From Myxococcaceae bacterium (lineage in GTDB: Bacteria; Myxococcota; Myxococcia; Myxococcales; Myxococcaceae), in assembly GCA_017881265.1 (NCBI GenBank), contig JADGRA010000066.1:1-64000 (forward strand): a stretch of 64,000 bases of DNA, read 5' to 3'. The notes beneath the pieces are model-generated. The model was not told where the DNA came from, searched no databases, and saw only the letters and a program-made list of their open reading frames with translations. Position 1 is the first letter of the stretch. Each line of letters begins with the position of its first letter. Positions 42,532 to 48,416 of the stretch are shown piece by piece. Position numbers and translations under genes: made by a program.

Positions 42532-43008
42532 ATGCTCGACGTGCGGTCCCTCTTTCTGGCGCTCGCGCTGTCGGCGGCGTGCGCGGCGACGTCCCCCTCG
42601 CCAGACGGCCTCGCAGCCAAGGTGACGTCTGCCCCCCCGGCCGGGCCCACGCTGTACCAGCGCCTGGGCGGACGCGACGTCATCGACGCCTTCGTCGCCA
42701 CGATGGTGGCCAACGTCGGACGGGACCCCCGCATCCAGCTGCGGTTTGTCTTCACGGACCTCGACGGTCTGCGCGGCCACCTCTCCGAGCAAATCTGCGA
42801 AGCCACCGGAGGCCCATGCAAGTACAGCGGGAAGGCGATGAAGCCGCTGCACGCGGGCATGCACGTCCAGAACGCCGACTTCGACGCCATGGCCGAGGAC
42901 CTGGTGGCTGCTCTCAACGCGCACGGCATTGGAGCCGCCGAGCAGAAGGAGCTCCTCGCTGCGCTGGGCACCATGCGCCCGGACATCGTCGAGGCGCCCC
43001 CACCGTGA
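42532..43008 (+). CDS. group 1 truncated hemoglobin, lipoprotein-like
   Basis: A 158-residue globin. The signal sequence ends in a lipobox-like LSAAC (Cys ~17), predicting export and possible lipidation, unusual for a truncated globin. The domain shows YQRLGGRDVIDAFV, FTDLDGLRGHLSEQICEATGG, and the proximal-His region PLHAGMHVQNADFDAM. Group 1 globins bind O2 and NO. It is the first gene of three linked by overlapping stop/start codons (GTGA at 43005), so it is probably coexpressed with the RDD kinase and the YceI-cytochrome. Confidence 0.88.
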   Translation: MLDVRSLFLALALSAACAATSPSPDGLAAKVTSAPPAGPTLYQRLGGRDVIDAFVATMVANVGRDPRIQLRFVFTDLDGLRGHLSEQICEATGGPCKYSGKAMKPLHAGMHVQNADFDAMAEDLVAALNAHGIGAAEQKELLAALGTMRPDIVEAPPP

Positions 43009-44381
43009 GCGCCACCATTCCGCCCACCGTCGCGACGCCGGTGAAGCTCACCGAGGAGCTGGGCAGCGGGCCGCTTCCCCCGGGCGCAATGCTGCGGCAC
43101 TTCCGCGTCGACCGTCCGCTCGCGGCAGGAGGGATGGGCGAGGTCTACGCGGGCTTCGACACGTCCTTGAACCGGCCGGTGGCCCTGAAGACCATCCGGC
43201 CTGCACTGGCCCGGGACCGCTCTTTCCTGGTGCGCTTCGTCCGAGAAGCGCAGGCCCAGGCCAACGTCGTCCATCCGAGCGTGGTGCAAATCTACTTCGT
43301 CGGCGAGGACCAGGGCGTCTGGTTCATGGCCATGCAGCTGGTGGACGGCGGCTCGCTGCAGGACGAGGTGGAGGGGGGGAAACCGCTCAGCTGGCAACGG
43401 GTGGCCAACCACTTCGTAGGTCTGGCCGACGGGATGGCCGAGGCAGCGCGGCTCAACATCATCCACCGCGACATCAAGCCGGCGAACATCCTGGTCGACC
43501 GCTTCGGGCTGGCGCACCTTGCAGACTTCGGGCTGGCCACTGCACCCGGCGCTGCCAAGGAGACGTCGGGCACGTACGTGCGCGGGGCACTGGAGGGCAC
43601 CGAAAGCGTCACCCACGTCGGAACGGTGGTGGGTACGCTGCCCTACATGGCCCCGGAGCAACTGCGGGGCGAGGCGCTCGACCAGCGAGCAGACGTCTAC
43701 GGCCTGGGGGCCACCATGTACCACCTGCTCAGCGGGCAGCTGCCGCTGCAGGCGCGCATACCGGCCGAGGCCCTGCAGCTGCTCGGCTCGGGGCTTCCGC
43801 CATTGCGCACCCGCGCACCGGGCACGCCGCGAGCGCTGGCCCGCGTCGTCGACCGCTGCGTCGCCCTGGACGCGGGCGCGCGGTTTCAGACGCACAGCGA
43901 ACTCGCCCGGGCCCTGCGCAGTGTCGCCCCGCAGCCGGAGGTGCGTCCCGTCTTCCTGGTACGCCTTCTGGCGGCACTCTTGGACGTCCTGCCCTTCGCC
44001 GTGCTTCTGCGCTTCACCTACGCTTTTGCGCCCTGGGTGGCTCCGGCCGGCCTGCTCCTCTCGCAGCTGCTGGGCCACCTGCTGCTCGGCGCATCTCCCG
44101 GCCAGTGGCTGATGCGGCTCCGGGTGCGGACAGCCGACGACGGGGACGTCTCTGCCCTGAGGGCAGCAGCCCGGGCGCTGCTTCAGTACGGTGGCTTTTT
44201 CCCCCTGGCCTTCACGGTGTTCGCCCTGTACGCGCGCGGCGCCGCGGTGGTGAATGCCCTCGGGCTGCTGACGGTGCTCTGGGCCGGTCTGCCGCTGCTG
44301 GGGGCGCTGCCGGCACTTCTGCGGCGGCCGACGCTGGTGGACCGCGCCACCGGAACGCGCGTGCTGGTGGACGTGCGATGA
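43005..44381 (+). CDS. Ser/Thr protein kinase with C-terminal RDD membrane domain
   Basis: A 458-residue Hanks-type kinase. The Gly loop is AAGGMGEVYAGFD, the ATP Lys is K62 (VALKTIRP), the catalytic loop HRDIKPAN is at 154-161, DFGLA at 174-178 and APEQL near 217. From ~315 an RDD domain follows with about four membrane helices (LVRLLAALLDVLPFAVLLRF, LLLSQLLGHLLLG, GGFFPLAFTVFALYA, LGLLTVLWAGLPLLG). Kinase-RDD fusions are known in myxobacteria. GTG 43005 overlaps the globin stop and the stop overlaps the next ATG (ATGA), so all three proteins are translationally coupled. Confidence 0.92.
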   Translation: MSATIPPTVATPVKLTEELGSGPLPPGAMLRHFRVDRPLAAGGMGEVYAGFDTSLNRPVALKTIRPALARDRSFLVRFVREAQAQANVVHPSVVQIYFVGEDQGVWFMAMQLVDGGSLQDEVEGGKPLSWQRVANHFVGLADGMAEAARLNIIHRDIKPANILVDRFGLAHLADFGLATAPGAAKETSGTYVRGALEGTESVTHVGTVVGTLPYMAPEQLRGEALDQRADVYGLGATMYHLLSGQLPLQARIPAEALQLLGSGLPPLRTRAPGTPRALARVVDRCVALDAGARFQTHSELARALRSVAPQPEVRPVFLVRLLAALLDVLPFAVLLRFTYAFAPWVAPAGLLLSQLLGHLLLGASPGQWLMRLRVRTADDGDVSALRAAARALLQYGGFFPLAFTVFALYARGAAVVNALGLLTVLWAGLPLLGALPALLRRPTLVDRATGTRVLVDVR

Positions 44382-45823
44382 GATTCCGGCTTCTGGCCCT
44401 GTCCCTCCTCCTCCTCGGCCTGCGCGCTTCGGCCGAGCCTCGCGTCTGGACGCTGCTGAAGCCCTCGGCGCGCATTCGCTTCACCGTCGAGGCCCCGCTG
44501 GATGCCATCCACGGGGCGTCGACCGGGCTGGCGGGCACGCTCACCTTCGCCGAGGACGCCTGGGCCGGGGGGGGCGGACGCATCCGCATCGACCTCGGCG
44601 GCTTCACCACCGGGCTGTCGCTGCGCGACGAGGACCTGCGGGAGCAGTTTTTCCAGGCAGACAAGTTTCCCGAGGCCACGCTCATCCTCACCGGCCTGGA
44701 GCGGGTGTCGACTTCCGCACTCACCGCCGAGGCCGATGCCCAGGCGGATGCGGTGGGGACGCTGTCGCTGCATGGGCAGACCCACCCGACCAGAATCCCC
44801 ATCACCGCCCGGTTGAGTGAAGCAGGTGGCCAGCGAAGCCTCCAGGTGCGCGGGACCTTCGACGTCACGCTGGCCGACTACGGCATCCCCCGGCCGGCGC
44901 GTCTCTTCCTCAAGCTGGGCGCGGTGGCGCGGGTCAGCTTCGAGGCGACCTTTCAGGCGTCCGCCCCCGCCTCGGTGTCGCAGGCGGTGGCGGCGGGCGC
45001 GCCTGCCCGTGCCCAGGGGGCGGCTCCGGCGCCGGGGACGCTTGGCCCACCGCTGTCGCTCAACGTGGTGGTGGCGCGACGGCCCAAGACGGCGGCGCGC
45101 GCGCCGGCTTGGGACTTCGCCCTCACCTCGGCCGAGGGGCGAGGGGAGCGGCTCTTCCATGACCCGAGCGTCGGCAGTGAAGTCAACGCCAACACCTGCT
45201 GGTCTTGCCACAACGTGCGGGATGAGCGGACCGGCTTCTTCGACACGGCCGGCCACGTGAAGTCCAACTCCACCCTCTGGGACAGTGGCCGGCGCCCCAC
45301 CTACTGGCGGGGCTTCGCCGAGACGCTGGAGAAGGCCATCGACATCTGCGTCCGGAAATTCATGCTGAAGCCGGGCGGCGCCCCACCGGAACAGCTGGCC
45401 GACCTGGCCACCTACCTGCGGCGCATCTCGCCGGACGCCCAGGCCGCCGAGGACTACGCCCCCATCGTCCTCGGTCGGCAGACGGCCATCGACCGGCCCA
45501 GCGGTGGGAATGCCGAGCGCGGAGCCCTCCTCACCGAGCGCTTCTGCGCGTCCTGTCACGCCGAGGGCGCGCTGCGGCCGCCGCTGACGCCCGGCCTGTA
45601 TGAGGCGGACTACTTGGTGAAGCGCGTCCGGTGGATTCCCGGGCATGACGCCAAGCAGATGCCTCCCATGGGCATGGACCGCCTGCGCGATGCCGAGCTG
45701 CGGGACATCGTCACCTACCTGGTCGGCGATGACGCGACGCGCATCTTCCGGCGGAAGCCCAAGCCCGTCGTGGCTCCACGCTCCGAAGCGCCGCACCGGG
45801 CCCCACCCGTCGCCGCCCGCTAG
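44378..45823 (+). CDS. exported fusion of YceI domain and diheme cytochrome c
   Basis: A 481-residue protein with a signal peptide (LLALSLLLLGLRASA, cleavage ~19). Residues ~20-192 are a YceI domain (FTVEAPLDAIHGAST, SLRDEDLREQFFQADKFPEA, GTLSLHGQTHPTRI). After an Ala/Pro-rich linker (~193-245) comes a diheme cytochrome region with CWSCH at 274-278 and CASCH at 390-394 and likely Met ligands near KQMPPMGM. It resembles the cytochrome-peroxidase-like domain of methylamine-utilisation relatives. The fusion suggests a lipid- or quinone-like ligand beside a redox path. It is the last gene of the globin/kinase operon. Confidence 0.9.
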   Translation: MRFRLLALSLLLLGLRASAEPRVWTLLKPSARIRFTVEAPLDAIHGASTGLAGTLTFAEDAWAGGGGRIRIDLGGFTTGLSLRDEDLREQFFQADKFPEATLILTGLERVSTSALTAEADAQADAVGTLSLHGQTHPTRIPITARLSEAGGQRSLQVRGTFDVTLADYGIPRPARLFLKLGAVARVSFEATFQASAPASVSQAVAAGAPARAQGAAPAPGTLGPPLSLNVVVARRPKTAARAPAWDFALTSAEGRGERLFHDPSVGSEVNANTCWSCHNVRDERTGFFDTAGHVKSNSTLWDSGRRPTYWRGFAETLEKAIDICVRKFMLKPGGAPPEQLADLATYLRRISPDAQAAEDYAPIVLGRQTAIDRPSGGNAERGALLTERFCASCHAEGALRPPLTPGLYEADYLVKRVRWIPGHDAKQMPPMGMDRLRDAELRDIVTYLVGDDATRIFRRKPKPVVAPRSEAPHRAPPVAAR

Positions 45824-45897: not shown

Positions 45898-46014
45898 AGG
45901 GTGCCGTCCGTAAGAAGCTCTCTCACAATCCGTCCGGCCATGGTGGCCGAACGTCGGCGCAATCAGGTATGCCGGCAGTTGCCGGAGACCTGCCGGACGC
46001 CCGAGGAGCCGCCG

Positions 46015-47073
46015 ATGTCGCTGGACATCTCCATCACCCGGTCCACGAAGCCGCGTCCGAAGCCGCCCGCCAATGACCTCGGGTTCGGGCGTTTCTTCAC
46101 TGACCACATGTTCCTCGCGGACTGCGACGCCGGCACGTGGAGCAACGGCCGCGTCATCCCATATGGACCCCTGGCCCTGGACCCGGCCGCGGCCGCCCTC
46201 CATTATGGCCAGACCCTCTTCGAGGGGATGAAGGCCTACCGGGCGAAGAATGGCCGGGCGATGGTGTTTCGGCCCCAACTGCATGCCGCGCGGCTCAACG
46301 CCAGCGCGGAGCGACTGTGCATGCCCAGCCTGCCGGAGGAGGATTTCCATCGGGCGCTGCGGGCCTTGCTCGAGTTGGACCGCGACTGGATTCCCGGAGC
46401 AACCGGGACCGCGCTCTACCTTCGCCCGGCGATGGTGGCCACCGAGCCCTTCCTGGGCGTCCGGCCGGCCCGCCGCTACACCTTCTTCATCATCGCCTCG
46501 CCGGTCGGGAACTACTGGGGTCCGAAGCCCTCCGCCCTCCGGCTGTGGGTCGAGACGAAGGCTGTACGCGCGGCCCAGGGTGGCATCGGCGCCGCGAAGG
46601 CTGGCGCCAACTACGTCGCCAGCCTCCTCACGGCCGAACAGGCGAAGGCGCACGGGTACAGCCAGGTGCTGTGGCTAGACTCTACGCACACCCATGTCGA
46701 GGAGGTGGGGACGATGAATGTCTTCTTCCGCTTCGGCGAGACCGTCGTCACGCCCCCCCTGGACGGCTCCTTCCTCCCCGGCGTCACCCGCGATTCGGTG
46801 CTGCAGCTTCTGCGACGGTGGAAGGTCCCGGTGGAGGAACGGCCGGTCGCCATGTCCGAAGTGGCCGAGGCCTATGACAGGGGCGAGCTGAAGGAAGTCT
46901 TCGGCACGGGGACGGCGGCCGTCATCTCCCCGGTGAGCGAGCTCACCTGGGGAAGCAGGTCGCTGCGTCTTGAAGACCGGCGCGGCGCGGTGGCCGAGCG
47001 TGCCTTCCAGGCGCTGACCGAGCTCACCCATCGCGGCGAGCCGGACGCCGAGGGCTGGCTGGTCGAGATGTGA
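46015..47073 (+). CDS. ilvE: branched-chain amino acid aminotransferase (BCAT, class IV)
   Basis: A 352-residue PLP enzyme of fold type IV. Family marks are HYGQTLFEGMKAYR, RPQLHAARLNASAERL, YLRPAMVATEPFLGV, the catalytic Lys region GGIGAAKAGANYVAS, and DSTHTHVEEVGTMNVFF, ending with FGTGTAAVISPV for the PLP phosphate. It makes or degrades Leu, Ile and Val with 2-oxoglutarate. The usual AAKCGGNY is AAKAGANY here, a mild change. ATG 46015 follows GAGGAG. Its stop overlaps the GTG of the next flavoprotein, so the two are coupled. Confidence 0.93.
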   Translation: MSLDISITRSTKPRPKPPANDLGFGRFFTDHMFLADCDAGTWSNGRVIPYGPLALDPAAAALHYGQTLFEGMKAYRAKNGRAMVFRPQLHAARLNASAERLCMPSLPEEDFHRALRALLELDRDWIPGATGTALYLRPAMVATEPFLGVRPARRYTFFIIASPVGNYWGPKPSALRLWVETKAVRAAQGGIGAAKAGANYVASLLTAEQAKAHGYSQVLWLDSTHTHVEEVGTMNVFFRFGETVVTPPLDGSFLPGVTRDSVLQLLRRWKVPVEERPVAMSEVAEAYDRGELKEVFGTGTAAVISPVSELTWGSRSLRLEDRRGAVAERAFQALTELTHRGEPDAEGWLVEM

Positions 47074-48416
47074 CGCGGGCGCCGCCCTTCGACGTCGCCA
47101 TCGTCGGAGGCGGTGCGAGCGGCACCCTGCTCGCCATTCAGCTGCTGCGCAGGGCGGCGCCTGGCGGTCGCTTCGTCATGCTCGACCGGGCGGGCGACTT
47201 CGCGCGAGGCATCGCCTACCGCACCGAAGAGTCCAGCCATGTGCTGAACGTCCCGGCGGCGAGGATGAGCGCCCTGGCCGACGAGGAGGAACACTTCCTC
47301 GCCTGGCTGCGGCAGCACGAACCCGCCGCGGGAAGAGACAGCTACGCTCCCCGCCGTCGCTACGGCGACTACCTGAGCGAGCTCCTCAGCGAGACCGAGG
47401 GGCGCGCCGGCGCGGTGCTGGAGCGCCGCACGGCGGAGGTCCGGGACTTGGAGGCGGACGCGGCCGGCGTGCGACTCCACCTGGACTCGGGCGAGGCCCT
47501 GTTCGTCCGGCACGCCGCGCTCGCGCTGGGAAACCTGCCGCCCATTCCCCTCGAGGCCTCCCCGGACGCGCGCACTCGCGTCTGGCAGTCGCCATGGAGT
47601 CCAGACGCGGCCTGGCCCGCCCCCGGGACCAGTGTCCTCCTGGTCGGCGCCGGCCTCACCGCCATCGATGTGCTGCTCTCTCTGGCCGCGCGCGGGCATG
47701 CAGGGCCCTGGCACATGCTCTCGCGCCACGGGCTGCTGCCGAATGCGCATGGGCCACGGACGCTGCCTCCTCTTGCCGTCGAGCTTCCCCGGGGGAGGCT
47801 TCGCCCGCTGGTGCGGGTGTTGCGCGAGGCCTCCGCGGCGCCCGGTGCGGATTGGCGGCCCGTCATCGACACCGTTCGACAACAGGCACATGCCCTGTGG
47901 CCCTCCTTGGGCGACGAGGAGCAGCGGCGATTCATCCGGCACGCAAGGACGCTGTGGGAGGTGCACCGCCACCGCGTCGCCCCGGAGGTGGGCCGGCAGC
48001 TGCAGAGCTTCCTCCAGTCGGGCCAGCTGCAGGTGCACGCTGGCCGCCTTCGCCGCCTCGCCTCCGCAGGCGCCAGACTGGAAGCGACGTTTCAGCCCCG
48101 GGGGACGGCGCGCGAGGAGACACTCCTGGTCGACCTGGCGGTGAACTGCACCGGCCCGGCAAGCCACGCCGCCACCGCGGACGTCCTAGTCAACGCATTG
48201 CTTCGTCGCGGACTGGTGCGCCCCGGCCCGTTTCAGCTGGGCCTGGCGACGGACAGCCGGGGCGCACTGCTGGACGCGCGCGGCCGAGCCGGCGGCACGC
48301 TCTGGACGCTGGGCTCCGTGCGCCGCGGGCAGCTTTGGGAGTCGACGGCCATTCCAGACATCCGGATGCAGGCCGCCGAACTCGCCTCCCACCTGGTTCC
48401 ACCCGGCGCAGGCTGA
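47070..48416 (+). CDS. FAD/NAD(P)-binding protein (NAD_binding_9 type)
   Basis: A 448-residue flavoprotein. The N-terminal FAD motif is VAIVGGGASGTLLAIQLLRR, followed by RGIAYRTEESSHVLNVPAARM (typical of this NAD_binding_9 group, conserved block in two parts). A second Rossmann site is VLLVGAGLTAIDVLLSLAARG. The C-terminus has LLVDLAVNCTGP and LGSVRRGQLWESTAIPDIRMQA. The reaction is unknown; relatives are often annotated as hydroxyacylglutathione-linked or siderophore oxidoreductases. GTG 47070 overlaps the aminotransferase stop, so its job may relate to amino-acid-derived metabolites. Confidence 0.85.
   Translation: MTRAPPFDVAIVGGGASGTLLAIQLLRRAAPGGRFVMLDRAGDFARGIAYRTEESSHVLNVPAARMSALADEEEHFLAWLRQHEPAAGRDSYAPRRRYGDYLSELLSETEGRAGAVLERRTAEVRDLEADAAGVRLHLDSGEALFVRHAALALGNLPPIPLEASPDARTRVWQSPWSPDAAWPAPGTSVLLVGAGLTAIDVLLSLAARGHAGPWHMLSRHGLLPNAHGPRTLPPLAVELPRGRLRPLVRVLREASAAPGADWRPVIDTVRQQAHALWPSLGDEEQRRFIRHARTLWEVHRHRVAPEVGRQLQSFLQSGQLQVHAGRLRRLASAGARLEATFQPRGTAREETLLVDLAVNCTGPASHAATADVLVNALLRRGLVRPGPFQLGLATDSRGALLDARGRAGGTLWTLGSVRRGQLWESTAIPDIRMQAAELASHLVPPGAG

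Follow-up and report, generated by a model that had tools for sequence, protein, structure and literature searches.

A globin and a YceI-diheme cytochrome fusion, with an optional RDD kinase, form a predicted envelope operon in uncultured relatives of Myxococcus

Two described systems come closest to the locus considered here. The first is Cbp2D of Cellvibrio japonicus, in which a CBM2 module is followed by YceI/X158, FN3 and two c-type haem domains, X183 and X132 (PMC8981238). The second is BcnA/LcoA, a lipocalin and a cytochrome b561 in peroxyl-radical detoxification; YceI proteins have also been reported with Q8 and a cytochrome partner (PMC9113575). We analysed a window of DNA spanning 64,000 nucleotides from a Myxococcaceae bacterium (assembly GCA_017881265.1, contig JADGRA010000066.1, positions 1 to 64,000 of the forward strand). 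Three overlapping genes in the window encode a truncated globin, a Ser/Thr kinase and a YceI-diheme cytochrome c fusion. Like Cbp2D, the fusion is a predicted secreted protein, with a YceI quinone-binding-type domain and two single-CxxCH haem domains in one polypeptide. Unlike Cbp2D, it has neither CBM2 (no Pfam match) nor FN3, carries haem 1 in a domain like the N-domain of cytochrome c peroxidases, and is paired with a globin (and with a kinase). This comparison was made by published domain order, not by direct alignment. The resemblance to BcnA/LcoA lies in a YceI lipocalin genetically tied to an envelope cytochrome. However, BcnA/LcoA has its cytochrome as a protein of its own, a b561 in the membrane, whereas here a diheme cytochrome c is fused to the lipocalin and a globin is added.

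The globin gene occupies positions 42532..43008 (158 aa ORF), the kinase gene 43005..44381 (GTG start, 458 aa) and the fusion gene 44378..45823 (481 aa; Pfam YceI and Cytochrome_CBB3). These and all other operon features given below lie on the + strand. Reading the sequence, the globin stop and kinase start share GTGA at 43005..43008, and the kinase stop and fusion start share ATGA at 44378..44381. The ORFs, overlaps and domains are all as the original prediction had claimed. The same 4-bp overlaps, GTGA at the first junction and ATGA at the second, recur in genomes G081 and G082 and at the second copy of the locus in G087. In G153, globin and kinase genes are joined by ATGA instead. Overlapping stop and start codons are a very common operon junction. 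Hence, it does not follow from them that the products are made in fixed proportion, as had been proposed. The operon is not a chance arrangement; 15 other loci carry the globin and YceI-diheme genes as a pair, with the kinase gene between them in 5 of the 15. A promoter scan found no sigma-70-like site, an uninformative outcome in this GC-rich DNA. Downstream (46012-48416), genes for a branched-chain aminotransferase and a FAD/NAD(P)-binding protein overlap at 47070 as a coupled pair. The aminotransferase gene likewise follows the operon in G082.

We searched 96 genomes of the window's family for the YceI-diheme fusion. Full-length fusions numbered 15, including that of the window, with the other members at 64-37% identity. 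An extra, partial second copy in G087 is ended by a contig edge. A profile search of the phylum (195 genomes) added one more fusion, in G153, from another family of the same order. The total is 17 loci in 16 Myxococcota genomes, with 16 of the 17 fusions full length. A pattern-based scan of 84,980 species genomes, which reaches close relatives only, gave matches solely in Myxococcota, all metagenome-assembled. A plasmid search for the fusion gave no match.

Every globin of the operon type (16) adjoins a YceI-diheme gene. The reverse is true wherever the contig permits; in G013 the contig ends before the globin position. Within the family, a globin profile search returned 15 matches above 215 bits, all 15 adjacent to the fusion, and the next match scored 119 bits. 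G153 supplies one further pair. The well-supported groups of the globin and cytochrome trees agree. Judged by gene order, the pair is an invariant and genetically inseparable core, a conserved gene unit carried by some uncultured relatives of Myxococcus. The expectation of conserved synteny thus held for the pair in related Myxococcota; it was too strict for the trio, the kinase being missing from 10 of the 17 loci. The kinase-less loci L023, L024, L026, L027, L028 and L030 have a wider neighbourhood in common: immediately 5' of the globin gene stands a TPR gene, and DUF4331 and a TPR-HupE/UreJ pair in divergent orientation also belong to it.

The window globin matches Bac_globin (Pfam, 1.5e-12) and has the fold and proximal His (F8) of a group-1 truncated globin. 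Structures of HbN and related trHbs are the closest to its AlphaFold model (TM to target 0.84-0.91). The best match is 2gl3, the TyrB10Phe/GlnE11Val double mutant of HbN. The hydrophobic leader contains a lipobox-like S-A-A-C17 (Cys codon 42580-42582), and a leader Cys in such a context is found in nearly all 16 globins; the first copy in G087 is the clear exception. The globin is probably exported and lipid-anchored, which agrees with the original prediction. Cys89 and Cys96, at the end of helix E (codons within 42796..42819, from the globin alignment), are present in 14 of the 16 proteins. They are lost together in G089 and G094, the pattern that a disulfide in an exported protein would give, and are a candidate disulfide. 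With HbN, a group-1 truncated haemoglobin and NO dioxygenase, the protein shares its fold, the proximal His (His107, codon 42850..42852, by alignment to HbN) and the GGP and Y-T/S-G motifs. Unlike HbN, it is predicted to be exported and probably lipidated, has the Cys pair, and is without Tyr-B10 and Gln-E11.

The distal pocket was read from an alignment to HbN, using a reference sequence identical to PDB 1idr. In the window globin, B10 is Val59, E7 is Leu80 and E11 is Leu84. Across all 16 globins, B10 is V, L, M or F, E11 is L or F, and F8 is His. Hence, the Tyr-B10 (and Gln-E11) of an HbN-type NO dioxygenase is absent from every one. A non-Tyr B10 is not a general trait of these bacteria; among other trHbs sampled in the same family, most have Tyr-B10 and many have Gln-E11. 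The subfamily L104-L107 has Ile at B10, in an uncertain pocket alignment, so absence of Tyr-B10 is not unique to the operon globin. In trHbs, hydrogen-bond donors such as Tyr-B10 and Gln-E11 are reported to set O2 off-rates, with values as high as 1e4 per s where the pocket is highly hydrophobic (PMC4720485). In flavohaemoglobin, TyrB10 leaves NO binding unaffected, unlike O2 binding (reviewed in PMC3820574). Since Tyr-B10 and Gln-E11 are missing here, O2 should be held poorly and dissociate fast, with NO and CO still bound. NO/CO handling or electron transfer is more likely than O2 carriage for such a pocket. The trio had been proposed as a system that binds O2 or NO; the O2 part fits this pocket badly, and NO, CO or another function is likelier. 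As possible support for NO, we compared the occurrence of nirK, which is present in 5 of 15 carriers vs 10 of 81 other genomes, a weak association (p 0.055). The window genome has no nirK above the cut-off. Two other globin arrangements were seen. In genus g6 (L114:1492-3372, also L113), one gene combines a truncated globin with PAS and MCP signalling domains and lies beside a CheW-like gene; its product is a putative trHb-based chemoreceptor. At L105:675-1896 (G043), another type of globin gene and a stand-alone YceI gene are arranged divergently.

The fusion contains a YceI lipocalin domain (44447..44950; Pfam 4.8e-19). The model of this domain has the YceI beta-barrel fold (TM 0.82 against 1y0g by target length) and matches isoprenoid/quinone-binding lipocalins, among them 1y0g, 1wub and BcnA (5ixh). 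From its relatives (PMC9113575, PMC8981238), we infer that the domain may bind an isoprenoid or quinone. The AlphaFold model is good for YceI and of low confidence for the haem domains, and haem ligands were not taken from it. Pfam also reports Cytochrome_CBB3 (5.7e-14), with CCP_MauG below the cut-off. Two CxxCH motifs, CWSCH (haem 1, 45197..45211) and CASCH (haem 2, 45545..45559), complete the diheme architecture originally described for this exported protein. The cytochrome half by itself had no significant match when searched directly against the PDB, but separate profiles of the two haem domains did match.

The haem-1 profile matches the N-domains of di-haem cytochrome c peroxidases (best 9e-7), and haem 2 lies in a class I cytochrome c domain nearest bc1 cytochrome c subunits (4e-8). 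In alignments, Cys324 (45347..45349) is invariant in 14 fusion proteins and in 16 haem-1 domains that include stand-alone diheme relatives. This Cys, 46 residues after the haem-1 His, is a possible distal ligand of haem 1. With such a ligand, haem 1 would be a His/Cys haem of the SoxA/TsdA type; SoxA-TsdA Pfam matches are weak and occur in 4 of 16 members. Met428 (QMPP, 45659..45661) is near-invariant and the probable sixth ligand of haem 2; only in G013 is it replaced by Cys. In the G013 fusion (L034:462-1832), the Met after Cys324 is also changed, to Val. The likeness to di-haem cytochrome c peroxidase/MauG stops at the N-domain-type match. Unlike those enzymes, the fusion does not have both CCP domains at full length; its second domain is of class I and it has the extra invariant Cys. 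The wider family of the haem-1 domain occurs near beta-propeller proteins in Myxococcus-type genomes, and a related diheme cytochrome at L089:6205-7230 has a DM13 electron-transfer domain as its fusion partner.

Our preferred, though tentative, reading is of an envelope redox unit. A quinone-linked diheme cytochrome would exchange electrons with an O2-poor, NO/CO-prone globin, the kinase being an accessory. The YceI domain would hold isoprenoid quinone and the two c-haems would relay electrons between this quinone and the globin; we infer a contact between globin and cytochrome. The relay may keep the globin haem ferrous, or may take electrons from it. Ferrous globin could then be a site at the envelope where NO (or CO/peroxide) is bound or converted. 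Genetic linkage, tree agreement, the apolar pocket, the YceI fold and the Cbp2D precedent support this reading. It is weakened by the low confidence of the model in the cytochrome half, by the weak nirK association and the missing nirK of the window genome, and by the many kinase-less loci whose DUF4331/TPR/HupE neighbourhood has no NO link. In a bolder and unlikely form, an O2-discriminating globin and a quinone-loaded YceI-diheme protein with Cys-ligated haem 1 would be an obligate pair that reduces or senses NO at the envelope, coupled to the RDD kinase in part of the lineage.

The YceI fold also suits a defence against lipid-peroxyl or oxidative damage of the BcnA/LcoA kind, which we consider doubtful. 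Peroxyl radicals in the membrane would receive quinol from YceI, with the diheme part recycling the quinol and the globin as a haem peroxidase or radical sink. The match of the YceI model to 5ixh, the action of BcnA with a cytochrome in peroxyl-radical detoxification (PMC9113575) and the likeness of the haem-1 domain to peroxidase N-domains all fit. However, the BcnA/LcoA partner is a membrane cytochrome b561 and not a globin. Furthermore, the catalytic residues of di-haem peroxidases are not evidently conserved in the fusion.

The third gene encodes a Hanks-type Ser/Thr kinase (Pkinase, 1.2e-36), as first described. Its catalytic part (~43107-43889) has intact GGMG, VALK, HRDIKP, DFG and APE motifs, so that the G-loop, VAIK Lys, HRD and DFG elements are all present. 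The membrane tail (~43950-44378) has three hydrophobic segments after residue 316. Its RDD match is borderline (24.1 bits at a Pfam cut-off of 24.1), and an RDD-type tail is conserved across the trio loci. The catalytic part comes before the first membrane segment and so should lie on the cytoplasmic side, apart from the operon partners. Both partners have export signals; hence, the kinase is unlikely to phosphorylate globin or cytochrome directly.

An RDD kinase gene is present in 7 of the 17 loci, one of them in another family of the order. The globin-kinase-fusion order is found in G000, G081, G082, G050, G087 (second copy) and G153; G013 has kinase and fusion genes at a contig edge. At the 10 loci without a kinase, the globin gene is directly 5' of the fusion gene. 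In the unrooted trees, a single branch (support 71/91 and 90/96) separates these loci from the rest. As the distant groups of G153 and G000 both have the kinase, this suggests a single loss as the simplest history. The kinase is, from its distribution, a gene of deep branches and yet a dispensable third member. Five genomes have a related kinase elsewhere, away from the pair. In genus g26 (L131-L135), a 41-44% identical RDD kinase stands alone among unrelated genes.

These data bear on an improbable alternative, namely that the kinase is governed by globin and cytochrome as part of an envelope gas/redox sensor. The 7 kinase-containing loci, distant family included, speak for it, as does the presence of the fusion in 10 of 11 family genomes with a kinase-RDD protein (p 3e-9, ignoring kinship). 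Conversely, 10 loci keep the pair without the kinase, the related g26 kinase has other neighbours, and the kinase has no extracytoplasmic sensor domain. In the envelope redox unit that we prefer, the kinase, where present, would probably report membrane or redox state inward rather than phosphorylate exported proteins.

It is also improbable that the fusion passes electrons to an extracellular oxidase or monooxygenase, the role put forward for Cbp2D, and that the globin serves as an O2/NO buffer or regulator. Cbp2D does join YceI (X158) to two c-haem domains, and X183 reduces LPMOs (PMC8981238), but no carbohydrate-binding module was found in the fusion by Pfam, no LPMO was seen beside the locus, and the constant partner is a globin. 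Very improbable is haem handling, in which the exported globin would chaperone or store haem for the maturation of the diheme cytochrome; a c-type cytochrome and an exported haem protein linked one to one would suit it, but cytochrome c maturation normally runs via Ccm/Ccs systems and the conserved pocket with its proximal His suggests ligand chemistry.

All parts of the operon belong to established families, and Cbp2D already offers YceI together with two c-haems (PMC8981238). The obligate pairing with an exported globin, and the optional RDD kinase, were not found in the literature searched. A search for YceI with globin (and cytochrome c) gave no paper in a full-text literature with few subscription papers; to that extent the original prediction that the trio is undescribed stands. 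The operon appears to be a module of the cell envelope, for redox chemistry or gas handling, that has not been described before. If our reading is true, its globin is a natural counterpart to the B10/E11 double-mutant pocket of HbN. The reduction or sensing of NO by the pair, if true, would make it a globin reductase system of a new kind, and one that works beyond the cytoplasm. Bacterial globins are generally placed in the cytoplasm, and for many of them no electron donor is known. A lipidated globin in constant company with its own YceI-diheme cytochrome would be half of a defined donor-acceptor pair on the outer side of the cytoplasmic boundary.
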